The notes under the pieces are model-generated. The model searched no databases. It had not been told where the DNA came from and was given only the letters and a program-made list of their open reading frames with translations. Source: Candidatus Aenigmatarchaeota archaeon (lineage in GTDB: Archaea; Aenigmatarchaeota; Aenigmatarchaeia; QMZP01). Taken from it: a stretch of DNA of 44,214 nt. The stretch covers positions 137,635 through 181,848 of the forward strand of contig JACPNN010000004.1 of assembly GCA_016185435.1 (NCBI GenBank). Direction: 5' to 3'. The position numbers were made by a program, and so were the translations under genes. Below, in pieces: positions 4,774 to 42,616 of the stretch (its first letter is position 1; the number at the start of each line of letters is the position of its first letter).

Positions 4774-5081
4774 GTCAGAACACCACACCTCTTCAGATGA
4801 TTCTGATACTTGCTGATATGCCTCTCGATGAGAGTGACCATAGGATAGACCGTGTCCTTGTTGAGGGAATAAATTCTTTGCTTTCCGTTCTGTTCCGCTG
4901 TGACAAAGCCGCAGTCTGCAAGGCACTTGAGGTTGCGGGACACCCTGCTCTGCTTGAATCCCAAGGCCTCGCAGATTTCGCCCACGCTTTTCGGTTTCCC
5001 TCCCTTCAGCAACTGGATGATTCCCAATCTTGTCCTGTTGGAGAAGGCCTTGAAGAACAGCCTGTATGGTTCATGGATCAT
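4770..5081 (-). CDS. ArsR-family metalloregulator of the mer operon
   Basis: 103-residue ArsR/SmtB winged-helix repressor: FKAFSNRTRLGIIQLL, then the recognition helix GFKQSRVSRNLKCLADCGFV and wing GKQRIYSL. Cysteines at 37, 53, 57 and 99 could sense thiophilic metal. It is the first gene of the merA operon. The start codon directly abuts a 16-bp palindrome and a TATA-like box lies about 26 bp upstream, so the transcript is probably leaderless and self-repressed. The archaeal mercury regulator called MerR in Sulfolobus belongs to this type. The inducer could also be arsenic or another soft metal. Confidence 0.9.
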   Translation of the reverse strand: MIHEPYRLFFKAFSNRTRLGIIQLLKGGKPKSVGEICEALGFKQSRVSRNLKCLADCGFVTAEQNGKQRIYSLNKDTVYPMVTLIERHISKYQNHLKRCGVLT

Positions 5082-5097
5082 ATTACAATTTTGTAAT
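5082..5097. promoter_or_regulatory. Palindromic operator of the ArsR-type regulator
   Basis: ATTACAA-TT-TTGTAAT is a perfect inverted repeat between the TATA-like box and the regulator start codon. A near-identical site (15 of 16 bases) lies at 6848-6863 before the CDGSH gene, so I read both as sites for this regulator. Confidence 0.75.
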
Positions 5098-6847: not shown

Positions 6848-6863
6848 TTTACAAAATTGTAAT
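6848..6863. promoter_or_regulatory. Second copy of the ArsR-type operator
   Basis: TTTACAAAATTGTAAT differs at one base from the operator at 5082-5097, and the similarity continues into the bases just before the start codon. It sits 8 bp before the CDGSH gene, with a TTTAAG element upstream at 6834-6840. Confidence 0.7.
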
Positions 6864-6870
6864 ATGAATC

Positions 6871-7068
6871 ATGGCAAGAATTATCGTGCATGAGGAAAAG
6901 GCTCCCGCGGAGATAAAGACCGGCAGCGAGAGCAGATGGATATTCATGTGCGGCCTGTCAAAAAACAGACCTTTCTGCTATGGCAGCCATGCAAAAGTGC
7001 AGAATGAGGAAAACGGCAAACTATACGCATACAGCAAAGACGGCACTGGAGTTGAAATCAAGGAATAA
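6871..7068 (+). CDS. CDGSH-type iron-sulfur protein with altered ligands
   Basis: 65 residues. The core FMCGLSKNRPFCYGSH matches the CDGSH 2Fe-2S motif (CxC-GxSxxxPxCDGSH), but the first cysteine is Phe (F25) and the Asp of CDG is Tyr (Y37). C27, C36 and H40 remain. Normal family members bind 2Fe-2S with three Cys and one His, so cluster binding may be lost or changed. The gene follows the second ArsR operator and precedes the threonine-dehydrogenase-like gene by 17 bp, so both are probably induced with the mer operon. Confidence 0.8.
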   Translation: MARIIVHEEKAPAEIKTGSESRWIFMCGLSKNRPFCYGSHAKVQNEENGKLYAYSKDGTGVEIKE

Positions 7069-10082: not shown

Positions 10083-11996
10083 TCACACCACCCTGAAAAA
10101 CGGCACGCCATATTTGAACGCCAGATCCTTTATGGCCTTTTTTCTCTCTTCAATATTTTCTGATTTCCATGTAAAAAGTGCTCCGCCGTTATACTGTTCC
10201 GCAAGCATCCGGTGGGTAAGGGCGGCCTCTTTCAAGGTTTTTCCGAAAGCGTCGGATAAATCCGAATAGGAAGGCCTTGGGCCCGCTGATGATGATATTA
10301 TCTTCCTGAATTTCCTCTGGTCAAATGCTGCCAGCCTGCCAAGGCAATTCCGGCCTGAAACTGACTGCAGGACTATTTTTTCGCTGTTCTCATTCTCCTT
10401 TATTCTCTTTCTTATATGGCCGTGTATCCTCGATATGAATTTCCTCGCCTCTGCTGTATCCAGGCCTTTCCCAAGAAAATTGAGGCTGCACTCCTGGAGG
10501 CCTGCCAAACTTGCTGCCGAAAGCATGCTGCCTGCTGAGATTCCATGGGCCTTCGACCATGGCATGAGGCCTTTCTCCATATTCTTCTGTATTTCCTTTG
10601 ACTTTATCTCAAGGGAGTCGAAGGCCATGTCCAGCCTCTTGTCCAGCCTCGAAAAGAAATCCTTATCGTCCCTGGAAAGGTAGCCTATGCGGGGCATGTT
10701 TATTGTCACCTCGCCTGCTATCCCCTGGCATTCTCCTGCGCCCAGAGGGCCTGTGGCGACAATCCTGTTTTTGCTTTCCCTGGGCACATGAAAATAGAGG
10801 CTGCAGCCGGATGATATGGCAGCCAGTTTTTCCATTTCACTCTCTGCCGGCTTCTTGCCGCCGAAGGAAAAGACAATTGAAGGGATTTCCAAAGGCTTCC
10901 CTGATCCATCGCCTTCGGCCATCACATCCAGCAGGCAGGACAGAATATTTCCGGCATCAAAATCAGAATATTTCTCCTTTATTTCTTTTCCGCCCAGCAC
11001 GGCCCTGTTCTCCAGCAGCTTTTTAGGAGCCTCGCCGACCGATATGGCTGCAGAAAGCTTCCTCTCATATGGCAGGTTCTGGTTCAGGCTGAAGATGAAT
11101 TCCTGCAGGGCCTGTTTTATCTGCTTTTCACTGAGATTGTCCCTGGAAGAAAGGGGGGAAAGATATGCATCAAGATTGTTGAGCGTCTGACAGGATGTCC
11201 ATTCTGCCTGCATGTTGCCGAGGATGCTCTGCGCCTGGCCGAGGGCTGAGCGGAAGTGCTTTGCGGGCCTGCTTGAAGGCTGCTGTATTCCTTTTATGCC
11301 TCTTTTCAATAGATGCTGAAGGGGCACGCCCAGCCTCGATCCTGCGAAGGTTCCATGGCTGAGGCCGTGTATGTGGATTATGGCATTTTTGTGGGCCCTG
11401 CTGGCTTCCCTTGGATAGATGCTGCTGAGACTGTATTCGGAGATTATCGCCCCTGAAAGGTATTCCCTCATGCCGCTGAGGCTGTGGTAGCTTGCCATAT
11501 CACCGTTGCTGTATTCCATGTAGCCTGAGACCATTCCTGAAACCCTCTCGAGGAAGGCCTTTGTGTCCCTTGTGTCGCTTCTCTGCTTCCTATAGAGGAT
11601 GTAGGCCTTTGCAGTCCTGTAGTGGCCTTCCTCGACCAGAACTTTCTCGACTATGTCCTGAATCTGTTCCACTGTCGGGATGGAGCCTGCAAACTCCTTT
11701 TCAAGCTGCTCCACAACCTTCTCTGAGAGCTTCTCTGCAAGCTTCTCGTCCTTTCCGCCGACTGACTGCGCGGCGCTGAAGATGGCATGCTTTATTTTCT
11801 CCTGGTCGAAGGGAACAACCCTGCCGTCCCTTTTCCTTATGGATTTGATTGTGCTGATTCCCTCAATCCTCTCATAAGTGGTAAAACGTTTCTTGCATCT
11901 CAGGCAAATCCTCCTCCGCCTGTTTGCATCAAGCTCAATTGAAGGCCTCTTGTCAATGACCTGTGTCCGCCTGAAGTTGCAAAATGGGCAGCGCAT
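10083..11996 (-). CDS. NrdR-like Zn-ribbon/ATP-cone fused to a degenerate NrdD-like domain
   Basis: 637 residues. The first 145 are NrdR-like: zinc ribbon CPFC...CLRC (C3/C6/C31/C34), KRFTTYERIE, and an ATP-cone. The rest aligns in order with anaerobic ribonucleotide reductase (HIHGLSHG, PAKHFRSALGQAQSILGNMQAEW, DNLSEKQIKQALQEFIFSLN, VTINMPRIGYLS, SLEIKSKEIQKNMEKGLMPW). The MCCR-type cysteine pair is not seen, the early cysteine after HIHDLD is missing, and the chain ends at FFRVV without the glycyl-radical RVCGY motif or its zinc cysteines. I infer a pseudoenzyme or regulator that senses nucleotides. The 48-bp copy of its 3' end at 8142 shows rearrangement nearby. Confidence 0.8.
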   Translation of the reverse strand: MRCPFCNFRRTQVIDKRPSIELDANRRRRICLRCKKRFTTYERIEGISTIKSIRKRDGRVVPFDQEKIKHAIFSAAQSVGGKDEKLAEKLSEKVVEQLEKEFAGSIPTVEQIQDIVEKVLVEEGHYRTAKAYILYRKQRSDTRDTKAFLERVSGMVSGYMEYSNGDMASYHSLSGMREYLSGAIISEYSLSSIYPREASRAHKNAIIHIHGLSHGTFAGSRLGVPLQHLLKRGIKGIQQPSSRPAKHFRSALGQAQSILGNMQAEWTSCQTLNNLDAYLSPLSSRDNLSEKQIKQALQEFIFSLNQNLPYERKLSAAISVGEAPKKLLENRAVLGGKEIKEKYSDFDAGNILSCLLDVMAEGDGSGKPLEIPSIVFSFGGKKPAESEMEKLAAISSGCSLYFHVPRESKNRIVATGPLGAGECQGIAGEVTINMPRIGYLSRDDKDFFSRLDKRLDMAFDSLEIKSKEIQKNMEKGLMPWSKAHGISAGSMLSAASLAGLQECSLNFLGKGLDTAEARKFISRIHGHIRKRIKENENSEKIVLQSVSGRNCLGRLAAFDQRKFRKIISSSAGPRPSYSDLSDAFGKTLKEAALTHRMLAEQYNGGALFTWKSENIEERKKAIKDLAFKYGVPFFRVV

Positions 11997-12237
11997 ACAT
12001 TAGATTGCTAGGGTGGTTAAAATTGGTTTTTTTTTTGCCTTTTATTTCAGAAGATATATTCCAGTCAAGTGGAAGGACGCCTAACTCCAAGCAGGTCGCT
12101 CTTGCTATGCGTTCGCAATGATTTTTGAATGAATCTTCGTCTGGCGGTGGAGCACAGCAGATCTTAAATGTCCAAAAATATAAAAAAACTGCAAAAACTA
12201 TGACAATAACGAGAAGAAGCTTCCATTGATTTTCCAT
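11953..12237 (-). CDS. 94-residue single-TM protein of unknown function
   Basis: N-terminal membrane helix (KLLLVIVIVFAVFLYFW) followed by a soluble part with four cysteines (ICCAPPPDEDS, NHCERIARATC). The end overlaps the start of the NrdR-fusion gene by 44 bp in another frame. A promoter-like repeat (CCAATTTTAA...) lies just before ATG 12237, the same element that precedes the NrdR-fusion gene, which supports a real leaderless gene. The last 25 residues are encoded through the second copy of that element and may be incidental. No family recognised. Confidence 0.45.
   Translation of the reverse strand: MENQWKLLLVIVIVFAVFLYFWTFKICCAPPPDEDSFKNHCERIARATCLELGVLPLDWNISSEIKGKKKTNFNHPSNLMYALPILQLQADTGH
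11994..12030 (-). promoter_or_regulatory. Repeated leaderless promoter element, copy 1
   Basis: On the minus strand reads AACCAATTTTAACCACCC, then GCAATCTAATGTATG, with the final ATG being the NrdR-fusion start. TTTTAA is about 25 bp before it, as for a TATA box. Related copies lie at 12235-12272 and 15485-15518. Confidence 0.6.
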
Positions 12238-12272
12238 ACGTTACATTGCAGTGGGTGATTAAAATTGGTTTT
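12235..12272 (-). promoter_or_regulatory. Repeated leaderless promoter element, copy 2
   Basis: AAAACCAATTTTAATCACCC...GCAATGTAACGTATG, ending at the ATG of the 94-residue TM protein. Same layout as copy 1 with a few substitutions. Confidence 0.55.
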
Positions 12273-12354
12273 GCCTGCCTTCGCATAAGCTGAGATTTTG
12301 GATTGCTGGCTTTCTTCTGCATGCTGTTTATAAGAACAATTCTATAGCATAATT

Positions 12355-12552
12355 GTGAAGCAAATGAAAGAGGACACGCAAAAATGGCTTTGGAAGGCGG
12401 AAAAGGATTTTGCAACTGCCATGTATAATTTCGAGGGCGGAAAATTGGATGCTGCGGCATTCTATTCCCAGCAGTCGGCTGAAAAGGCGCTCAAAGCGCT
12501 CCAGATAGAGAGGCTGGGCAGGTTTGCTGGAATGGACAAAAAAAAGGGCTGA
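12355..12552 (+). pseudogene. Truncated HEPN gene
   Basis: The first 55 codons are a HEPN N-terminal half (WLWKAEKDFATAMYNFEGGKLDAAAFYSQQSAEKALKALQIERLGRF). The frame then runs through an A8 tract to a stop (GMDKKKG). A normal HEPN domain needs about 70 more residues. The sequence from GMDKK onward looks like the start of the neighbouring MNT gene, so a deletion appears to have joined the HEPN 5' half to the MNT start. With seven A residues instead of eight, the two reading frames would be one fused HEPN-MNT protein. Confidence 0.65.
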
Positions 12553-12853
12553 GACAGTGAAAAAACTAAGGGAATTCAAGCAGGCCATAAAAAGAAGATA
12601 TGGGGTTGAGAAGATTATTTTCTTCGGCTCAAGGGCCGCAGGAAACTACAGGAAATACAGCGATATAGACCTTATTCTGATCAGCAAAAAATTCAGGGGG
12701 AAAAGCTTCCTGAAGAGGCCTCTTGGCCTTCATTTTTACTGGAATCTTGGATATCCTGTCGACTTCATATGCTACGCGCCGGAGGAGTTTGAGAAGCTGA
12801 AAAAGGGGATCACGCTGGTGAGCCAGGCCCTGAGGGAAGGAATTGAGATTTGA
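12524..12853 (+). CDS. Minimal nucleotidyltransferase (MNT) of damaged HEPN/MNT module
   Basis: About 105 residues with the MNT core IIFFGSRAAGNYRKYSDIDLILIS (GSxxxG and DxD) and a C-terminal part LGYPVDFICYAPEEFEKLKKG typical of the family. The open frame allows a TTG start at 12524. The natural ATG at 12532 is out of frame by one base because of the A8 tract. In intact modules this enzyme adds AMP to the HEPN toxin. A structured 37-nt repeat begins 2 bp after its stop codon. Confidence 0.75.
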   Translation: MLEWTKKRAETVKKLREFKQAIKRRYGVEKIIFFGSRAAGNYRKYSDIDLILISKKFRGKSFLKRPLGLHFYWNLGYPVDFICYAPEEFEKLKKGITLVSQALREGIEI

Positions 12854-12855
12854 AG

Positions 12856-12892
12856 CTTGCATACCCCCTCACGCCGGAAGGGAGTGTGCGAC
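12856..12892 (+). repeat. Structured 37-nt repeat, copy E1
   Basis: Begins CTTGCATACCCCCTCACG and ends AGTGTGCGAC. On this strand the ends pair (TTGCATA with TGTGCGA, including G-T pairs) and an inner CCCT/AGGG stem forms. Starts 2 bp after the MNT stop. Opens the first cassette-like segment, 12893-14054. Confidence 0.85.
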
Positions 12893-13081
12893 AGAATCTG
12901 TGGAGGTGTCCGATGTCTCTGGAGAAGGTTTACTAGGCAGTTTGGGAGTGAGCTGGTCCAGAAGGGCGCAACCTGTTGTGAGCAAAGCGAAAACGGCCGT
13001 CAAGAAGAAGACCAGGAGACTCCTGAACGGCACCACGCTATAGGCCCCCTTGGATACGAGGCTTATACCACATTCCGCCAT
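12869..13081 (-). CDS. Small lipoprotein-like protein
   Basis: 70 residues from ATG 13081. A hydrophobic signal (LLVFFLTAVFALLTTGC) ends in a lipobox cysteine (C38), followed by a Pro/Ser/Thr-rich tail. The stop codon and last codons lie inside repeat E1. A GTG at 13036 or 13033 would give a more usual signal peptide. It starts 22 bp after the Yip1-like gene on the same strand, so the two could be one operon within the segment. Function unknown. Confidence 0.45.
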   Translation of the reverse strand: MAECGISLVSKGAYSVVPFRSLLVFFLTAVFALLTTGCALLDQLTPKLPSKPSPETSDTSTDSVAHSLPA

Positions 13082-13103
13082 GTCAAGTCAAGCTTCAGCG
13101 GTA

Positions 13104-13673
13104 TTAAGGAGCTGTCAAGTACAACGGCGACGGAGTGGGCCAATAGGGTTCAATCAGCTGTAGGGACATATGTAACAGGAACAGGGAAAGAATCCATGTA
13201 AGGATGGCCTTTCTGGGCGATAGGTTGAGCAGCTTCTCTGCTCCCTTGACCATAAGGTACCCCGTCCAGACAGTGAATACCAGTCCAATAAAGCCCAACT
13301 CGATCAATGGTGTCCAGCCCAACAGCCAAAAGGGGGTTAGGCCGTAGACCACTACTTTGAAACTTTGGCCCACAGGTTCCTTCGCCCCTAAAACATAAGC
13401 CATGCTGTGGAAAAAGAGGACATTAGCGGCTGTCGCGGTTAAGGCCTTGAGGAAGTGCAGAGGTGGCATAAATATCAAGAACCGGACAATGTCTATGTCC
13501 GGAACCAGCAGCACAAAAAAAGCGTCCGCCATCGCCCTCAACACCGAGTAGAGGATCAACATCGCTAGTAGATAATGGAGAGCCTGCATGGGAGGGCTGT
13601 TGCGCTCTTTTCCCATTGCCTTGGAGGGCTGGCGTAAGAACTTAATCGCTCTGGACAGCAAAACAAAGGCCAT
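13104..13673 (-). CDS. Yip1-like multi-pass membrane protein
   Basis: 189 residues with five hydrophobic segments and a Yip1/DUF-type layout: short cytosolic N-terminus with a basic helix (FLRQPSKAMGKERN), then segments around ALHYLLAMLILYSVL, FFHSMAYVLG, VVVYGLTPFWLLGW and GLVFTVWTGYLMVKGAEKLLNLS. Yip1-type archaeal proteins are of unknown function. It lies within the segment bounded by repeats E1 and E2 and is followed by a lipoprotein-like gene. Arginine codons include CGC and CGT, more than in neighbouring chromosomal genes. Confidence 0.7.
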   Translation of the reverse strand: MAFVLLSRAIKFLRQPSKAMGKERNSPPMQALHYLLAMLILYSVLRAMADAFFVLLVPDIDIVRFLIFMPPLHFLKALTATAANVLFFHSMAYVLGAKEPVGQSFKVVVYGLTPFWLLGWTPLIELGFIGLVFTVWTGYLMVKGAEKLLNLSPRKAILTWILSLFLLHMSLQLIEPYWPTPSPLYLTAP

Positions 13674-13981
13674 TCAATTATTTGGATTGCGTTGAATAAA
13701 AAGGCGGTAATCTGCTCTGTGCAGGGTAACGCATACGTGTCGATTTATTATCCATCAGACTGGCATCTCACTCAGTCAGTCACAGCTGTCTGAGACGACC
13801 AAGTCAGAAAGACATCTATCTGAGGCAGATGACGGATGTCCCTTCCAGGCTTCCTGAGCGGCTACGTTGGTCTTCAGACAGCAAATGGTATTTCCCCTCA
13901 GACTGCCTTTGACAATTTCAAGGTCATAAGACGATAGCTGTTACTGGGAAACCATTTCGGGGAACTGGCCTGAAAGGGGGA
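13674..13981. other. Intergenic stretch, no gene seen
   Basis: No convincing coding frame on either strand. It contains several GTCTGAG/CAGACTG-like short inverted words (13780-13910), which may reflect small hairpins. No TATA or ribosome site tied to a gene was found, except AAGGGGGA directly before ATG 13982. Confidence 0.3.
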
Positions 13982-14173
13982 ATGGCAGCGGATGTAACAA
14001 GGATATTGACCCTGATCGTGGTTGTTGTAGCTGGAATAGTGCTGGTTTTCAACTCTTGCATACCCCCTCACGTTACGTGGGTTGTGCGACCCTGTCACAT
14101 GGAATATCTTTCCTGCCATAACAAATCAGAAATTACTGAAATATGGTGCTTGGTGTTTTTATTCCTAAGGTAA
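13982..14173 (+). pseudogene. Truncated TM protein running into repeat E2
   Basis: ATG 13982 gives MAADVTRILTLIVVVVAGIVLVFN, a signal or membrane helix, after which the frame enters repeat E2 and continues without recognisable protein character to 14173. I read this as the 5' end of a gene cut by the repeat. A leader of a small membrane peptide is possible. Confidence 0.35.
14055..14090 (+). repeat. Structured 36-nt repeat, copy E2
   Basis: Begins CTTGCATACCCCCTCACG and ends GGGTTGTGCGAC. Outer TTGCATA/TGTGCGA pairing plus an inner CACG-TTA-CGTG hairpin. Separates segments 12893-14054 and 14091-15443. Confidence 0.85.
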
Positions 14174-14260
14174 AAAAGGGGTTATGGAGCTGTTTTATGT
14201 CGTAAAAGTGGTGAAAATGTATATTATAAATGGATAAATACCGACACCCAACTCTATGAT

Positions 14261-15442
14261 GTGAAAGAAGGAAAAAACGCATTTTCTGATCAATCTTATT
14301 CGGGAATCTTTCTCCGCTTCCTGCGTTTCGGGTTTCTTGCGTGGGGAGGTCCTGTTGCCCAGATAGGGATGATAAAGAAGGATCTTGTTGATGAGGAAAA
14401 ATGGATTTCTCCACAGAAATTTAACAGGGCGCTGGCAGTATATCAAGCTCTCCCTGGACCAGAAGCGCATGAATTGTGTGTTTATTTTGGGCATCTGGCT
14501 AAAGGAAGGTTAGGAGGCTTATTGGCCGGTTTAGGCTTCATGCTTCCAGGCTTTGTTTTAATGCTGATACTTTCATGGATATACCTCACATTCGGGATAA
14601 ACTCTGCATTGTTTGCTGGAGTGTTTTATGGAATGCAGCCTGCTGTCGCTGCTTTGATATTCAGGGCGGTGCACAGTATTGGGAACTCTGCAGTCACAAA
14701 TCCTCTTTTATTTGCTCTTTTTTTCATCTCATTCCTTGCTTCCCTTTTAGGGATACATTTTATCTTTGCCCTTATTTTTCCTGCAACAGCTTATTATTTT
14801 TCCAGAAAAAAGCAATACCTTTTGGCAGCGTTTTCATGCCTTCTGATCTTAACCGTGGCTTTCGTATATGGCTCTGTCTCAAGCTTCCAGCTTTCTCAAG
14901 GAACTGCAGCTGCTCCAGCAACCCCTGAATTATTCTTCACTGGCCTAAAAGGCGGCCTGTTAAGCTTTGGAGGGGCATATACATCCATACCATTCATAGA
15001 GCAGGATGCTGTCAGCAAAGGGTGGATGACAAATTCCCAGTTCCTGGATGGCCTGGCATTGGGGGGCATTATCCCTGCCCCACTTATCATCTTCTCCACT
15101 TTTGTGGGATATTTTGCTGGCGGTTTGGGAGGGGCTTTAGCAATGACAATAGGCATCTTTCTGCCTGCATTCGCCTTCACTCTGGCAGGCCATAAGTACC
15201 TTGAAATGCTGATTATCAGCAGGAAACTTAAGGATTTTCTTGACGGCCTTACTGCAGGCGTAATTGGGTTTATAGGGGCAATATCTGTGATCCTATGGAA
15301 AGAGGCTGTGACAGATATTGCAACATTTGCCATTTTCCTTTTATCCATGTTTATTCTTTACAGATGGCATGCAAAGGCATCTGTTGCTTTTGTCATGATA
15401 GGGGCTGGGATAGCTGGCCTATTGCTTTCAGGATGGATTTAG
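14261..15442 (+). CDS. chrA: Chromate transporter ChrA family
   Basis: 393 residues, the long two-domain CHR form. The N-terminal half has FLRFGFLAWGGPVAQIGMIKKDLVDEEKW, then ALPGPEAHELCVYFGHLAKGRLGGLLAGLGFMLPG. The second half repeats the pattern (GGLLSFGGAYTSIPFIEQDAV, FLDGLALGGIIPAPLIIFSTFVGYFAGGLGG). About ten hydrophobic segments. Family members export chromate or related oxyanions across the cytoplasmic membrane. A GTG start at 14261 follows TATA-like elements at 14222-14240, so it is probably leaderless. It fills the segment between repeats E2 and E3, and E3 begins 1 bp after the stop. Confidence 0.92.
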   Translation: MKEGKNAFSDQSYSGIFLRFLRFGFLAWGGPVAQIGMIKKDLVDEEKWISPQKFNRALAVYQALPGPEAHELCVYFGHLAKGRLGGLLAGLGFMLPGFVLMLILSWIYLTFGINSALFAGVFYGMQPAVAALIFRAVHSIGNSAVTNPLLFALFFISFLASLLGIHFIFALIFPATAYYFSRKKQYLLAAFSCLLILTVAFVYGSVSSFQLSQGTAAAPATPELFFTGLKGGLLSFGGAYTSIPFIEQDAVSKGWMTNSQFLDGLALGGIIPAPLIIFSTFVGYFAGGLGGALAMTIGIFLPAFAFTLAGHKYLEMLIISRKLKDFLDGLTAGVIGFIGAISVILWKEAVTDIATFAIFLLSMFILYRWHAKASVAFVMIGAGIAGLLLSGWI

Positions 15443-15443
15443 C

Positions 15444-15480
15444 CTTGCATACCCCCTCGCGTTACGTGGAGCTGTGCGAC
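15444..15480 (+). repeat. Structured 37-nt repeat, copy E3
   Basis: Begins CTTGCATACCCCCTCGCG and ends GGAGCTGTGCGAC. The inner stem is CGCG-TTA-CGTG, where the A of E2 is replaced by G, keeping a G-T pair. It starts 1 bp after the chrA stop and is followed by the third copy of the promoter-like element. Confidence 0.85.
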
Positions 15481-15484
15481 CGCG

Positions 15485-15518
15485 TATACATTAGATTGCG
15501 GGTGGTTAAAATTGGTTT
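15485..15518 (-). promoter_or_regulatory. Repeated promoter element, copy 3, orphan
   Basis: AACCAATTTTAACCACCC then GCAATCTAATGTATA on the minus strand, nearly identical to copy 1. The ATG it would serve opens only a short frame into repeat E3 that stops after nine codons, so it seems to be a duplicated promoter left beside the repeat. Confidence 0.5.
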
Positions 15519-15754
15519 GTTCCCCGTTATGGAGGCCCCTGGAAAAATATTTAAACCTTTGCCTCCATAATACACTGATATGCGCCAATGCAGCTTTATC
15601 CACAGACTGAAGTCTATTATACTCGGATAGAGTCAGCATTCATTGGCCATCTTCTCTCCTTCTGCTTCTTGGAACAGTTTTCCTGTCAGTTTCCTTTCGA
15701 CCTGAAATTGTCCGGGGGAGCCGCAGGAGGGTTAAAAGGAAGGGGAGGTGAAAT
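15519..15754. other. Intergenic stretch with promoter-like element and short remnant
   Basis: AATATTTAAAC (about 15547-15557) sits 25-30 bp before ATG 15580, a leaderless layout, but that frame stops after 16 codons (MRQCSFIHRLKSIILG). It may be a gene remnant. A strong AGGGGAGGTG near 15740 serves the gene at 15755. Confidence 0.35.
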
Positions 15755-24188: not shown

Positions 24189-24237
24189 CGGCCCTCTGCT
24201 TCCCTCAGCCTTTTAAGCATTGCCGCCAATAGTCGGA

Positions 24238-24948
24238 ATGGATATCACCCTTTCCCCCTCGAGCCTCTCCCTGATGGAAGAGTGCAGAAGGTGCTTCTGG
24301 CTGCAGGTGAACAAGGGCATAAGGAGGCCTGAAGGGCCTTTTCCATCCCTGCCCTCGGGCATGGACAGGGTACTGAAAAATTATTTTGATGGCTACAGGA
24401 AAAACGGCATGCTTCCGCCTGAACTGGCCGGAAAGGCAGAAGGCGTTTTGTTTCCTGATTTTGACAAGCTGAATGAGTGGAGAAGCAACAGGAATGGCCT
24501 GAGATACAAAACAAATAATGGGGCCGTTCTGATGGGGGTGCTTGACGACCTGTTGCTGGAAAACAGCGGGAAATATGCGCCCATAGATTTCAAGACAAGA
24601 GGCCATCCCCTGAAAGAAAACACCCACACATATTACCAGCTCCAGATGGACATTTACTCATTCCTTCTTGAAAGGAACGGAATGCAGCAGGCAGGCCACG
24701 CATTCCTCATATTCTACCATCCGAAAGCTGCGGAAGAGAACGGGAAGGTTTCCTTCAATGTCGAGACAGTAAAGATGGGCACAGAGCCTGCAAGAGGGGA
24801 GGCTGTGTTTTTAGATGGCATAAGCGCCCTTTCGAAAGAGCTGCCTGAAGCGAACAGCTCATGCGGATTCTGCAGGTGGCTTGAAACAGTGAAAGGGCAG
24901 CTTTCAGCAAAGGAGAGCCAGAAGCTGCTGGATGATTTTGAATTTTAA
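24238..24948 (+). CDS. Cas4/RecB-like PD-(D/E)xK nuclease
   Basis: 236 residues from ATG 24238, with CTTTTAAGC about 25 bp upstream. It has LSPSSLSLMEECRRCFWLQ at the start, the nuclease core GVLDDLLLE...APIDFKTRG (D, D-x-K) and YYQLQMDIYSFLLE (QxxxY-type helix), and a CGFC pair near the C-terminus. The Cys pairs at both ends resemble the iron-sulfur arrangement of Cas4/AddB nucleases. It lies behind the ABC exporter genes, not next to cas1, and may act in general DNA repair. Its link to the Cas1/Cas2-like pair 6 kb away is unproven. Confidence 0.8.
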   Translation: MDITLSPSSLSLMEECRRCFWLQVNKGIRRPEGPFPSLPSGMDRVLKNYFDGYRKNGMLPPELAGKAEGVLFPDFDKLNEWRSNRNGLRYKTNNGAVLMGVLDDLLLENSGKYAPIDFKTRGHPLKENTHTYYQLQMDIYSFLLERNGMQQAGHAFLIFYHPKAAEENGKVSFNVETVKMGTEPARGEAVFLDGISALSKELPEANSSCGFCRWLETVKGQLSAKESQKLLDDFEF

Positions 24949-28363: not shown

Positions 28364-28400
28364 GTCGCACACCCCCGCTCAACTCGAGGCCCTGCGCAAG
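28364..28400 (-). repeat. Structured 37-nt repeat, copy E4
   Basis: On + begins GTCGCACACCCCCGCTC and ends CCCTGCGCAAG. It differs from E5/E6 at four positions. In the minus strand TTGCGCA pairs with TGTGCGA: the two changes at this end keep every pair (A-T to G-T, G-T to G-C). Confidence 0.85.
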
Positions 28401-28436
28401 ATGTGATGACCGAGTTTATTGTCCAGCTTGGGATCT

Positions 28437-28838
28437 TTAGTAGTGGCAAACTTGAGATTCACACGCATATGTTGTATTAGCCGCAGTCACGTAATATAAC
28501 ACGAATCTTTCATTGGCTAGCTTATTCCTGGCCATCGTCTTAACTCTCCGACCATCAGGGTTGTGGGCTACTACGCGCTGGTCATAGACTGCGATCCACT
28601 CATTCTCATAATCATCCACAAGCTCAGCATGCCGTGACACAGCCCACTTTAGGTCATCCCAGTACCGCTCTTCGCTTCCTGCCATAGGCCTCACCTGGCC
28701 AACTACCACAACACTTTGCGAAGCTGCCCCGTATGTAAACGCCACAACAGGCTTGTATTGTTGAGGTGTCGGCCAGCGATATAACAAAGTATTAAAATGA
28801 ATACTTAAATCTTTTCTCTCTCTTGTGGGGTCGCACAC
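28437..28838 (-). CDS. Unknown protein in segment between repeats E4 and E5
   Basis: Up to 133 residues. The longest frame starts at a GTG inside repeat E5. A TTG at 28787, about 20 bp after a TTTAAG element, would start at the conserved-looking part (LYRWPTPQQYKPVVAFTYGA). The protein is soluble and mixed alpha/beta by eye (AFTYGAASQSVVVVGQVRP, ERFVLYYVTAANTTY), with two cysteines near the end (CESQVC). It is unlike neighbouring genes in codon use, with CGN arginines. It is the only gene in this 429-bp segment and ends 36 bp before repeat E4. No family recognised. Confidence 0.55.
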   Translation of the reverse strand: MCDPTRERKDLSIHFNTLLYRWPTPQQYKPVVAFTYGAASQSVVVVGQVRPMAGSEERYWDDLKWAVSRHAELVDDYENEWIAVYDQRVVAHNPDGRRVKTMARNKLANERFVLYYVTAANTTYACESQVCHY

Positions 28839-28866
28839 ACCCTCTCAACTCGAGGCCCTATGCAAG
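28830..28866 (-). repeat. Structured 37-nt repeat, copy E5
   Basis: On + begins GTCGCACACACCCTCTC and ends GGCCCTATGCAAG. Identical over all 37 bases to E6 (30412-30448). About 27 of 37 bases match E3 in the same orientation. Confidence 0.92.
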
Positions 28867-29036
28867 TCTATGACGGGCGCATAACATTCGAGCAATTCAA
28901 AACACTCTTCGACGGCGTAGTCGTCTTCGGTGATCAGATTCATCCCGATTTGGTCAGCATCGTTAGACATGCTGCACAGAGAAAACGAGGTACGGTGCGA
29001 GACGCCGTGCGCGATATTCTAGAAGGCAAGGATTAG
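28860..29036 (+). CDS. 58-residue protein starting inside repeat E5
   Basis: ATG is the ATG of the repeat end (CGAGGCCCTATGCAAG), with GAGG upstream as a possible ribosome site, so the repeat itself supplies the start. The protein is MQVYDGRITFEQFKTLFDG... with a basic middle (HAAQRKRGTVRDAVRD), no TM and no cysteine. It is followed 9 bp later by the 343-residue gene, with AGGAGA between, suggesting one operon. Function unknown. Confidence 0.5.
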   Translation: MQVYDGRITFEQFKTLFDGVVVFGDQIHPDLVSIVRHAAQRKRGTVRDAVRDILEGKD

Positions 29037-29045
29037 GAGAACTAG

Positions 29046-30077
29046 TTGGACAGCAAGGTGGCGGATATCAAGAAACCTGGAGACGAGATTCAATATAGAG
29101 CGAGGACACTTGCCAGTGTTTTGGTTGCACTTAGCGCTCAGCGCTCTGAAACGCAAGATGAAGCATCTCTCATATCTGAAAAACCATATGAGAGGCTTCC
29201 GGAAATTTCGCAATTGGATATCCTCGCTGAGAGAGAACCAAGACTAGAGTTGACACTCCCCAAAATTCCAGCAGTGCGCTATCCACCAAAAGGACAGAAG
29301 AGAAGCATAAGCCCCTCACAGTCGTTTAAGGAAAAGGAAGAGGCTATTACACTGTACATTGGCAGAGGTCTTCAGCGTGTAGAGGTCTCTGACTATTTAA
29401 ATCTGGCCTCCCATCAATCCTACGGTGATATGGATGTACGCTCAGCGGTACAGGCCTCGCCTCTGACTAAGAGAACTTTGGAACGGCTCTACGCGAACCC
29501 CAAATTACAGCCTTTGAAACCAGAAGAGTTACTTAAACCCAGACAGCGACAGCTGCTGAAGCATGCCATCGTCCCCCTTTACACGGGAAAACCGTTTACG
29601 CTAGTGACTAAGAAAGATAGAGACTTGGCTTTGGAATGGGCATCTTCGGACGAGCTTCAACAGGCCTTGCATGAAGGGCAAGAATATCGAGAAGTAGCTA
29701 GGGCATACAATATATGGAGAAAACCCCACAAAGCAGTTCAAGACGCTATTTATGCCGATGTATCTGCCATTCGTCAGGCATATGGTGTCAAGCCCGCGCG
29801 CCAGCGGCGGCGTGAAATCCTGTATGAATTCATGGTCCACGATCTCTGTATGAGGCCAGAGGCTGTAAGGCCAGAACAGATTAGGGATGCGTTATTGCAC
29901 CACCGATCATCGACATTGCCACGCTACAAGAGGCTCCGCGATTATTTAAGATACTTGAAACCACCGTTGCGCCGCTACCATCCTACTTCTGTTTATAAGA
30001 TCCTGCGCACGGATCTTATAAACATACAGCTAATGCGCGAAAACCCAGAAGAAGAGGCGTACCATTACTTTCGATAG
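29046..30077 (+). CDS. 343-residue basic protein of unknown function in the E5-E6 segment
   Basis: TTG start with AGGAGA five bases upstream. The protein is highly charged and mostly helical by eye, with repeated basic helices (KRTLERLYANPKLQPL, KPRQRQLLKHAIV, PARQRRREILYEFMVHDL, PRYKRLRDYLRYLKPPLRRYHP). Blocks such as EYREVARAYNIWRKPHKAVQDAI look like helix-turn-helix units, so DNA binding is a fair guess. No catalytic motif seen. It is the largest gene of the 1545-bp segment between two identical repeats and uses more CGN arginine codons than surrounding chromosomal genes, which suggests transfer. Confidence 0.65.
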   Translation: MDSKVADIKKPGDEIQYRARTLASVLVALSAQRSETQDEASLISEKPYERLPEISQLDILAEREPRLELTLPKIPAVRYPPKGQKRSISPSQSFKEKEEAITLYIGRGLQRVEVSDYLNLASHQSYGDMDVRSAVQASPLTKRTLERLYANPKLQPLKPEELLKPRQRQLLKHAIVPLYTGKPFTLVTKKDRDLALEWASSDELQQALHEGQEYREVARAYNIWRKPHKAVQDAIYADVSAIRQAYGVKPARQRRREILYEFMVHDLCMRPEAVRPEQIRDALLHHRSSTLPRYKRLRDYLRYLKPPLRRYHPTSVYKILRTDLINIQLMRENPEEEAYHYFR

Positions 30078-30366
30078 ATAATCCTACCTAATGGTGAGCC
30101 TTCGACCGGGCTCGCAAACAATCACTGAATGTAACGTGCATTACCTTCATTGGACGTGTCGAGGAATGTCTTGCTTTTCGCAATTTTATGTGATAGACTC
30201 AGGCCCACTGGCCAATGACTTGAGGCCAGAGCGAGAGAACATGGGCGTCTATAGGGGCAAAGGTGGGCCGAGAACGCAGACTGGATCTATACGTCTCGCC
30301 ACAAGCTTTATTCTTTCCCTCTCAATGTGCCATGCCTTGCCCCAATCATATCTACAAGGAGGGGCT
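30078..30366. other. Stretch between the 343-residue gene and repeat E6
   Basis: No convincing gene. A frame from 30091 runs through here on + but has no protein character. AAGGAGG at about 30357 stands before the short ORF at 30367. Confidence 0.3.
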
Positions 30367-30543
30367 ATGGCCGAATATTTCTTTTGCCGAAGTTGCTACG
30401 GTGTCGTCGCGGTCGCACACACCCTCTCAACTCGAGGCCCTATGCAAGACGCTACAGCGTGCAATTTTGTTTTGCAATCAATATACCTCAAAGCCTTTAT
30501 TGAAGCGATTCATTCTTATTCGGCTGACAGAGGCGTTATTTAG
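30367..30543 (+). pseudogene. Short CxxC ORF running into repeat E6
   Basis: ATG with a good AAGGAGG site six bases upstream gives MAEYFFCRSCYGVVAV, which starts like a zinc-ribbon protein and then reads straight through repeat E6 into the DNA opposite the Cas2-like gene. I interpret it as a gene cut off at the repeat. Confidence 0.4.
30412..30448 (-). repeat. Structured 37-nt repeat, copy E6, next to cas2-like gene
   Basis: Identical to E5. Lies 29 bp after the stop of the Cas2-like gene, in the orientation where the foldable strand is the cas coding strand. Closes the 28867-30411 segment. Confidence 0.92.
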
Positions 30544-30768
30544 CATGCATTTGGCGCATTTTGAGCACAGCGTGGAAGCTAAAAATGTGTCACTGTTGGA
30601 GTTCAATAACTCTGATGCCTTTTTTCTGAAATCTCTGAGATCCTTTTCAGCCAATGTGCCGAATGAAAGACCGCCGGGCAGGCTGCTCAGCCCGAAATCT
30701 CTGGCCAGGAAGCGCATCAGTTTCTGTTTCTTTCTGCTTCTTGTGCGCCAGTAAGCCATCATCTCCAT
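30478..30768 (-). CDS. Cas2-like protein with shortened N-terminus
   Basis: Up to 96 residues, overlapping the end of cas1 (starts at 30768, or 30762 with an ATGA overlap). It resembles Cas2 from its first helix on: RKKQKLMRFLARDFGL, then GGLSFGTLAEKDLRDFRKKASELL in place of QxSVFEG-L..., and DTFLASTLCSKCAKC like the last strand and LCxxC of many Cas2 proteins. The usual first strand with its Asp (YDI) is not present; MAYWRTR stands there. Cas2 bridges Cas1 dimers during spacer integration, and its catalytic Asp is dispensable. The call is by pattern and by operon with cas1. Confidence 0.6.
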   Translation of the reverse strand: MEMMAYWRTRSRKKQKLMRFLARDFGLSSLPGGLSFGTLAEKDLRDFRKKASELLNSNSDTFLASTLCSKCAKCMLNNASVSRIRMNRFNKGFEVY

Positions 30769-31757
30769 GGGTGGTAATCCTCCAGCTTGAACGGGATATA
30801 TTCCTTTTCCCTGCCAGTGAGATAATGTGCCAGGTGTAGGACTTGGGCTTTGACAGCCTCTCTAACTTTTATCCTTTGCCCGTGCCAGTTCATGCTTTTA
30901 TTCAGCCGCGAATATATCCTGGTGACCAGTATCCTTTTGCCGTCTTTGAGAAGCACGCCGTTGCTGACAAACTTTGCTCCCCGGTTGGCATTCTTGATAA
31001 TGATTCCAACAACCGCCACATCAACAAGCGGAACCCTGAACTCCTCGATTAGGTCGAAAATGAGGGACATCTGTCCATACCTGTCTGCATGGTAAAAACC
31101 AATGTAGGGATCAAGGCCTGTGTAAAGGCAGTTCCTTTCCAGTTCGTTATATAAAATCCCATAGCCATAGTTAAGCATCACATTGACGGAGTCCTTCGCA
31201 TTTCGCGTTACTCTCCCTGGAAAATCTACAAGCTTGCGGATGCATCTGAAGTACTGGCCTGCTATGTTCCCCTCCAGTGCCAGCAGATTGGAGCGCATTT
31301 CTGGCATACTGCCCGAAACCATGTGCAGTGAATCAAGATATGTTTCTATTCTGATAGTTTCTTGGCTGAAATCTGCCTCATATTTCTTGGAAAGGAATTT
31401 CAGAAAGCTCAACTGAGCATTTCCCTTTGCCTCTATGAATTTTTTCGCAAGGATTGCGGCCATTCCCGAGTTAGCAGCTTCCGCCTGCCTTTGACGTATC
31501 AGAGATAAGCTTCCCTTCTTGCTGGGTATGAGCCTGCCCACAGGCATTCCGAACTTCCCAAGAAACACAATATCGATATCATATTCAAGTGCCAAGCTTA
31601 CCGCACCTGCAGAAATTGAGGAAGGGGCAAGAACAATGATTTTTGAAATCTTCCTTACAGGAAACTCCTTTTCTGTTTTTCCTTTTGGGTCGAAAAGGAC
31701 TATCCTTTCCCCTGACTTCCTTATCCTTGTTCCGAAGCGGTTGATTATAATATCCAT
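30759..31757 (-). CDS. cas1: CRISPR-associated endonuclease/integrase Cas1
   Basis: 332 residues from ATG 31757 (MDIIINRFGTRIRKSGER, the usual Cas1 beginning); an upstream ATG at 31811 adds residues atypical of the family. The N-terminal beta domain is followed by the helical catalytic domain with LEGNIAGQYF (E162), NVMLNYGYGILYNEL, GLDPYIGFYHADRYG (H223) and LIFDLIEEFR (D235/E238), so the metal-binding E-H-D/E set is kept. Cas1 integrates DNA into repeat arrays. No interference genes are in the window; only a Cas2-like gene follows, then a 37-nt repeat. Confidence 0.95.
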   Translation of the reverse strand: MDIIINRFGTRIRKSGERIVLFDPKGKTEKEFPVRKISKIIVLAPSSISAGAVSLALEYDIDIVFLGKFGMPVGRLIPSKKGSLSLIRQRQAEAANSGMAAILAKKFIEAKGNAQLSFLKFLSKKYEADFSQETIRIETYLDSLHMVSGSMPEMRSNLLALEGNIAGQYFRCIRKLVDFPGRVTRNAKDSVNVMLNYGYGILYNELERNCLYTGLDPYIGFYHADRYGQMSLIFDLIEEFRVPLVDVAVVGIIIKNANRGAKFVSNGVLLKDGKRILVTRIYSRLNKSMNWHGQRIKVREAVKAQVLHLAHYLTGREKEYIPFKLEDYHPWR

Positions 31758-31918
31758 ACTGTCATGCCTGAATGCTGCTTTGTTATATTTTGTTTCGGCT
31801 ATTTTAATCATTCAAATCCTTTTCATATGTTCATGTGTTCAGAAATGCGTCACAGCCTCCGCAGAGAAAATGCCATGGAGATATCTTAATTAATCCTGCC
31901 GCTATCCTTTTAGTAACT

Positions 31919-41088: not shown

Positions 41089-41226
41089 ATGTACCGGAAA
41101 AAGAATCCCATAAGCAGCCTGAAGGGAAATGAGAGGATTGAGGACATCTTTGTGGTCAAGATAAAGAAAGGGGTTGCAAATATTGAATTGAAAGATAAAC
41201 TGAGTATCTCGGTGGTCGAACGCTGA
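41089..41226 (+). pseudogene. Duplicated promoter plus 5' fragment of the HD/OB nuclease gene
   Basis: The first 29 codons (MYRKKNPISSLKGNERIEDI...) match the start of the gene at 41639 with one amino-acid change (S for G). The upstream TATTTATTC...TCCAATT is also similar to the region before 41639. After KIKKG the frame diverges and stops at 41226. It is a truncated duplicate, though a 45-residue peptide could still be made. Confidence 0.8.
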
Positions 41227-41638: not shown

Positions 41639-42616
41639 ATGTACAGAAAAAAGAATCCCATAAGCGGCCTGAAGGGAAATGAGAGGATTGAGGACATCTT
41701 TGTGGTCAAGATAAAGAAGGGCATTTTCCCTTATGTGAATGGCTACTATTTCCACCTGCTGCTTTCTGATGCAGAGGGCAAGAACATAGACTACAAATAC
41801 TGGGGAGAGAAGGACGAGGCCAAGGTGAGGGCTCTCTATGAATCCATAGAGCCTGATGCTGTCGTGCTTGTGCAGGGCAGGACTGCAATTTATATGGGCA
41901 CATTGCAGATAGCCACGAATCACCCTGACACGATAAAGGTTCTTGGAGAAGGGGAATACGATCCCTCGGATTTTGTCAAGAAATCGAAAAGGGATATAGG
42001 GGAGATGGTTCAGGAATTGAGAGGCCTGATAGCATCTGTCCAGAACCCTGAGATAAAGAGGCTGCTTGAAAGAATATTCATTGAAGATGAAGCTTTCATG
42101 GACAAATTTAAGCAGCATCCTGCCGCCATACAGATACACCATAACTGGGCTGGCGGTTTGATTGAGCACAGCCTGCAGCTTGCGAGATACTGCGAGGCCA
42201 GCAAGGCCGTGTTCCCGGAGCTTGACAGGGACCTGATGATTGCAGGGGCTCTGCTTCATGATATAGGAAAGCTGAGCGAGATACAGGTGACCACAAGAAT
42301 AAAGGGGACAAAGGAAGGGCAGCTCATAGGGCACATCCCGATAGGCTATTCAACCCTTTCGGATATCATGGAAGAGACAAAAATAAGCGATGAATTGAGG
42401 ATGAAACTGCTGCATATAGTTCTGAGCCATCAGGGGCAGATGGAATATGGCTCGCCCAAAGAGCCTATGTTCCCGGAAGCAGTGGCTGTCTATCTGGCAG
42501 ATGAGCTGAGTTCCAAGCTTGCAGAGATCATAGAGTTTGTTGGGGAATCGAAAAAGGGGACTGAGGATGATTTCATGTACCACAACAGGCATAGGAGGAA
42601 CATATACCTGAAATGA
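41639..42616 (+). CDS. OB-fold/HD-domain 3'-5' exoribonuclease, YhaM-like
   Basis: 325 residues from ATG 41639. The N-terminal OB-type domain (about 10-95: FPYVNGYYFHLLLSDAEGKNIDYKYWG) is followed by an HD domain with HHNWAGGLIEHSLQLARYC, AGALLHDIGKLSEI (HD pair) and KLLHIVLSHQGQMEYG, then PMFPEAVAVYLADELSSKL. This matches YhaM/CBF1-type nucleases that trim RNA or DNA 3' ends. Its promoter and first codons are duplicated at 41050-41175. Confidence 0.9.
   Translation: MYRKKNPISGLKGNERIEDIFVVKIKKGIFPYVNGYYFHLLLSDAEGKNIDYKYWGEKDEAKVRALYESIEPDAVVLVQGRTAIYMGTLQIATNHPDTIKVLGEGEYDPSDFVKKSKRDIGEMVQELRGLIASVQNPEIKRLLERIFIEDEAFMDKFKQHPAAIQIHHNWAGGLIEHSLQLARYCEASKAVFPELDRDLMIAGALLHDIGKLSEIQVTTRIKGTKEGQLIGHIPIGYSTLSDIMEETKISDELRMKLLHIVLSHQGQMEYGSPKEPMFPEAVAVYLADELSSKLAEIIEFVGESKKGTEDDFMYHNRHRRNIYLK

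Follow-up and report, generated by a model that had tools for sequence, protein, structure and literature searches.

What is to be made of a cas1 gene that is followed by an orderly series of 37-nt repeats, when the repeats are separated by whole genes? The question is raised by a locus in a window of 44,214 nucleotides, the whole stretch of DNA that was analyzed, which forms the end of a 182-kb contig (C23) of an aenigmatarchaeal genome of 1.35 Mb and 95% completeness (hereafter G000). The first-pass annotation had proposed that Cas1-Cas2-like proteins might collect gene cassettes in such an array.

The cas1-cas2 module and the adjoining array

The annotation had read an intact E/H/D set in cas1 (30759..31811, minus strand; 350 aa), and this was borne out both by Pfam (Cas_Cas1, 4e-63) and by alignment with other Cas1 proteins, in which the catalytic Glu, His and Asp are conserved. 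The overlapping gene that had been called Cas2-like (30478..30768, minus strand; 96 aa) is a more diverged case. Its sequence match is weak (PADLOC Cas2_II, 0.0023) and the YDI aspartate is missing, but the protein can be aligned with Cas2, its AlphaFold model, of moderate confidence (pLDDT 69), has a ferredoxin-like order, and the top PDB match of that model in Foldseek is the Cas2 of Streptococcus pyogenes (4qr0, E 9e-4). Judged by the model, the product is probably a strongly diverged Cas2 with the ferredoxin-like Cas2 fold. In the Cas1 tree, the window protein falls in a type V-F-like clade, on a long branch, grouped with Cas1 proteins of the same phylum and with that of locus L008 (97/84). 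The close rows L008 and G050 sit with Cas12f, each in a cas1-cas2-cas4-cas12f set (PADLOC Cas12f, 2e-165 and 4e-42), and the nearest kin of the window Cas1 belong to Cas12f (type V-F) systems of its own phylum. Homologues of Cas12f and Cas4 were absent from the roughly one-quarter of G000 that was searched, all of C23 included. Separately, a gene at 24220-24948, 6 kb from cas1, encodes a PD-(D/E)XK nuclease that weakly resembles Cas4 (PADLOC Cas4, 3e-6).

Twenty-nine bp behind cas2 and on the same strand, an adjacency with a chance of about 0.4 to 1.4%, begins the first of three minus-strand sites, E6 (30412..30448), E5 (28830..28866) and E4 (28364..28400), in the order and single orientation first described. 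E6 and E5 are indeed identical over 37 positions, or 38 with the next C, and E4 differs from them at 4 of 37; an identical pair followed by a degenerate repeat is the polarity of a CRISPR array, and E4-E6 occupies the position expected of one. The intervals, at 1,545 bp (28867..30411) and 429 bp (28401..28829), do hold genes, as reported, with the correction that the repeats and the two ORFs of the larger one are on opposite strands: 58 aa (28860-29036, plus strand), with its start inside E5, and 343 aa (29046-30077, plus strand), of no known family. The smaller interval has a minus-strand gene of 133 residues (28437-28838; Pfam DUF5678, 9e-11). Relatives of these cassette proteins were not found in viral contigs, searched with both proteins, or in phages, searched with the 343-aa protein.

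A family of sites and the genes between them

The site family extends beyond the three repeats originally noticed. A strict site pattern has 4 matches in the window versus none in 100 shuffles, and a second array lies on the plus strand. There, E1 (12856..12892) comes after a HEPN-MNT-like gene pair read from the sequence (12364-12552 and 12557-12853), and is separated from E2 (14055..14090, 36 bp) by a cassette (12893..14054) with a Yip1-domain gene (13104-13673, minus strand); the next cassette (14091..15443) carries a chromate transporter gene (14261-15442, plus strand; Pfam Chromate_transp, 1.3e-71) and is closed by E3 (15444..15480, 37 bp). A covariance model built from nine site copies recovered ten copies with strong scores, each of them on C23; the copies on other contigs are weaker and clustered. 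A second model (R2) adds more; the lone sites of two further genomes, G024 and G055, were in its training set, so that their E-values are inflated and these sites were given little weight. Altogether, G000 has about 20 sites in 10 loci, either lone or in arrays of 2 to 3 same-strand sites that bracket single genes. On C23 these are array A (106.4-109.5k, where three sites are accompanied by a half site), 129.5k, E1-E3 and E4-E6; the others are on C22 (10.7-13.0k and 28.9k), C17 (30.0-30.9k), C7 (46.3-47.1k), C8 and C9. All ten neighbor pairs within 2 kb are same-strand, against a random mean of 0.56 and a maximum of 5 in 20,000 trials. The annotation had asked whether copies across the genome cluster near cas1 and whether empty sites keep exactly one repeat; copies do cluster and lone sites exist, but cas1 adjoins only 1 of the 10 loci.

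Arrays are also present in G022 and G013, which represent other genera of the same family (76% and 58% complete). Farther out, about 390 other genomes have no site at E<5e-4 besides the two lone sites of the training set, a pattern search of 100 relatives gave background noise only, the R2 model detected nothing significant beyond the family in the loci of Cas1 relatives, and the three array loci have no match in Rfam. Strict and loose patterns run against IMG/VR gave eight matches, all discarded as lying within phage genes or as otherwise chance-like.

The cassettes of this family, 429 to 1,563 bp long, are each filled to about 50 to 98% by one main gene or gene pair, and n cassettes come with n+1 sites. 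Besides the chromate transporter and the Yip1-domain protein, the cargo includes an archaeal ATPase/DUF234 protein, a diphthamide synthase-like protein, a HEPN-MNT-like pair, an OmdA/YdeI protein and a DUF1428 protein. Two cassettes of G022 are compositionally foreign, with GC contents of 0.41 and 0.51 versus 0.64 in the flanks, where no window of the same length reaches 0.41. It is very probable that a gene-cassette array system using these sites exists. The orthologous locus of G017 is without the DUF1428 cassette of G022, but it differs in other ways too and is not a clean empty site. The one interval of nearly spacer size, 52 nt between two sites of G013, is next to a cassette that carries an EamA-type transporter (L185:2362-2488). 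Toxin-antitoxin type genes of the HEPN-MNT or HEPN-like kind were seen beside sites at about four loci (window 12364-12853; L160:10860-11992; L163:5475-6442; L161:6851-7255).

The sites themselves have a length of 37 in 16 of 29 cases (range, 34 to 39), with conserved, mutually inverted ends (the first eight CTTGCAYA, the last eight TRTGCGAC) around a variable center. Such ends can pair on one strand (91 to 97% of the outer cells), and several copies lie just past stop codons. Both features would suit REP-like mobile hairpins that settle at gene ends and have no relation to Cas1, which was the main doubt raised at the outset. Against this, the hairpin has no significant independent covariation, and single copies mostly fold no better than shuffles; moreover, gene orientation is random, with 6 genes on the strand of the site and 8 on the other, the arrays are same-strand, and there is the match to type V-F repeats described below. 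The doubt is thus weakened, and we consider mobile hairpins highly improbable.

Type V-F repeats and the candidate integrase

A clue to the nature of the sites comes from the G050 locus, where a mini-array adjoins cas12f. It consists of two copies of CTTGCACAACA(A/G)(A/G)TAACTCAACTATCCAATGTGCAAC, separated by 38 nt, plus a 37-mer related to them; only two repeats are clear. The covariance model misses these repeats, and they were detected through their ends. On a matrix of the site ends (8+8 nt at a length of 37 nt), where the sites themselves score 17 to 27, the G050 repeat CTTGCACAACAGGTAACTCAACTATCCAATGTGCAAC reaches 25.0 bits on its best-scoring strand, which is opposite to its cas genes, and 17.4 bits on the cas strand; the higher score has P<2.5e-6, attained by none of 400,000 random 37-mers and 400,000 random perfect dyads. 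A Thermoflexus CRISPR repeat has the outer 6+6 end bases in common with the sites (chance, about 1e-4), and repeats at related Cas1 loci are mostly 36 to 37 nt. The Cas14a1 repeat, too, begins GTTGCA and ends TGCAAC. The match in ends and length makes the sites CRISPR-repeat-like and thereby supports a link to Cas1-Cas2, which we infer to be the best candidate integrase.

The reading that we tentatively prefer, at somewhat less than an even chance, is that the sites are CRISPR-repeat-like elements of the V-F type, which the family uses as gene-cassette junctions, and that Cas1-Cas2 inserts the cassettes. Mechanistically, a Cas1-Cas2 integrase, be it the window's own or, in trans, one of its earlier relatives, would cut a resident site at both ends, and gene-sized DNA would be joined at the cut site, leaving one site on either side. 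The inverted end motif at its constant distance would reflect the need of two symmetric Cas1 active sites, with the center serving merely as a ruler, and selection would retain those captured genes that are useful. A more ambitious version, in which a V-F adaptation module has been turned into an integron-like but CRISPR-built gene-capture machine that places gene-sized foreign DNA into 37-bp sites genome-wide, is possible and a little more doubtful. It counts against the preferred reading that the insertions known for Cas1-Cas2 are of 30-40 nt, as opposed to 0.4-1.6 kb.

The internal structure of the sites bears on this mechanism in two ways. In G000, the left center (positions 9-22) is 0.85 identical within arrays versus 0.54 between them, and the array specificity of the left part has a permutation p<0.0005 over all sites; an array-specific left 22 nt fits duplication on insertion. 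In the right 15 nt, by contrast, sites of one array resemble each other no more than sites of different arrays do (0.64 versus 0.65), a result that plain repeat duplication does not predict. Array A ends in a half site, CTTGCATATGGCCTTGAGTTGAGAGG (L114:13514-13539), which keeps the left 26 nt, is missing the right part and resembles site A1. The mosaic structure fits a left part that is duplicated or exchanged upon insertion, which is not a full explanation. Also counting against a Cas1 mechanism, nine of the ten loci are away from cas1, and the arrays of G022 and G013 are in genomes where the Cas1 search had no match, at the completeness given above. The original proposal is partly supported: the arrays of cassettes between repeats, the V-F-like length, ends and Cas1, the lone sites and the foreign composition of the G022 cassettes speak for it, and the dispersal of the sites and the divergence of their repeats do not fit it.

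The same observations lend themselves to conservative recombination of the integron kind, in which circular cassettes with one site each are inserted site by site by a candidate recombinase (an XerA-like enzyme, for example), with cas1-cas2 as cargo or a chance neighbor. Compact single-gene cassettes, divergence within arrays as if the sites traveled with their cassettes (apart from E5 and E6, neighboring repeats are 59 to 92% identical), the different behavior of left and right parts and the arrays without a Cas1 match would all follow, and an ordinary XerA-like gene is present on C17 of G000. However, across 41 genomes of the order no match to IntI (TIGR02249) passes the cut-off, and serine recombinases were not found in G000, G022 and G013; the match to a V-F repeat next to a V-F Cas1 would be left unexplained, and a left part common to each array is unexpected if whole sites travel. 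We regard this alternative as rather unlikely. Another possibility dispenses with cassette machinery altogether: the sites would be stray V-F repeats, left behind by arrays since lost or by Cas1-Cas2 integrating off target, and the genes between them would have come by ordinary recombination or indels. It would account for the CRISPR-like ends and length and for the lone sites, but not for arrays of same-strand sites whose intervals are compact and mostly hold a single gene, at several loci and in three genera, nor for the two G022 cassettes that are foreign to their flanks, and it seems quite improbable.

Around array ends, no target-site duplications were recognized other than a promoter-like repeat of about 35 bp (ATACATTAGATTGC..GGGTGGTTAAAATTGGTTT) around E1-E3. 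Its three copies are at the start of an nrd-like gene (11995-12035), at the start of a small ORF (12238-12275) and directly after E3 (15482-15520); it may be the mark of target duplication upon insertion. Other repeated segments of the window are an 83-bp duplication, 95% identical (41089-41171 and 41639-41721), with each copy at the start of a reading frame (that of an HD/OB-type protein gene for the second copy), and an inverted repeat pair of 25 nt, 92% identical (5072-5096 and 6849-6873), around a DsbA-like/SEC-C gene region that is possibly another mobile unit.

If Cas1-Cas2 does drive cassette capture, CRISPR adaptation would gain a second function, in which genes are collected instead of memories, and CRISPR, casposons and integrons would be joined by function. 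Even with another enzyme, this would be a non-integron cassette system and a new route of gene gain for archaea with tiny genomes, with HEPN-MNT, restriction-like and transporter genes as its cargo. Either way, it raises the question of why the cassette sites have their ends in common with V-F CRISPR repeats.

Comparison with known systems

One close counterpart is found in the type V-F (Cas12f/Cas14) CRISPR-Cas systems of DPANN archaea, which have the same Cas1 clade, 37-nt repeats and TTGCA...TGC(A/G)AC ends. They likewise place cas1-cas2 beside the array, an arrangement seen here at 1 of 10 loci only. The differences are that spacers of about 25 to 45 nt are replaced here by intervals of 429 to 1,563 bp, the 52-nt interval of G013 excepted, that repeats near-identical in those systems are here mostly diverged and dispersed over the genome, and that neither cas4 nor cas12f is near the sites. 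With casposons, the common point is a Cas1 potentially able to mobilize long DNA, but a Cas2-like partner is present here, no PolB was seen beside it, and neither terminal inverted repeats nor PolB were recognized around 28-33 kb. In pdif/Xer modules, gene modules also lie between short dyad sites; those are 28-bp dif sites of 11-6-11 structure, versus 37 bp here, and to our knowledge the ends of our sites are unlike dif half-sites.

Integrons and CALINs, including archaeal integrons (PMC9668308), have short sites in the same orientation and mobile gene cassettes, often with no integrase nearby, and tandem same-strand sites with compact cassettes are what was found here. The present arrays differ in their constant 37-bp sites, in having n+1 of them for n cassettes and in carrying genes in either orientation, where integron cassette genes mostly keep to one. 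Because there is no IntI, there are no attC boxes (RYYYAAC/GTTRRRY) and there is no bias in gene orientation, the system is by definition not an integron, yet in its working it is integron-like.
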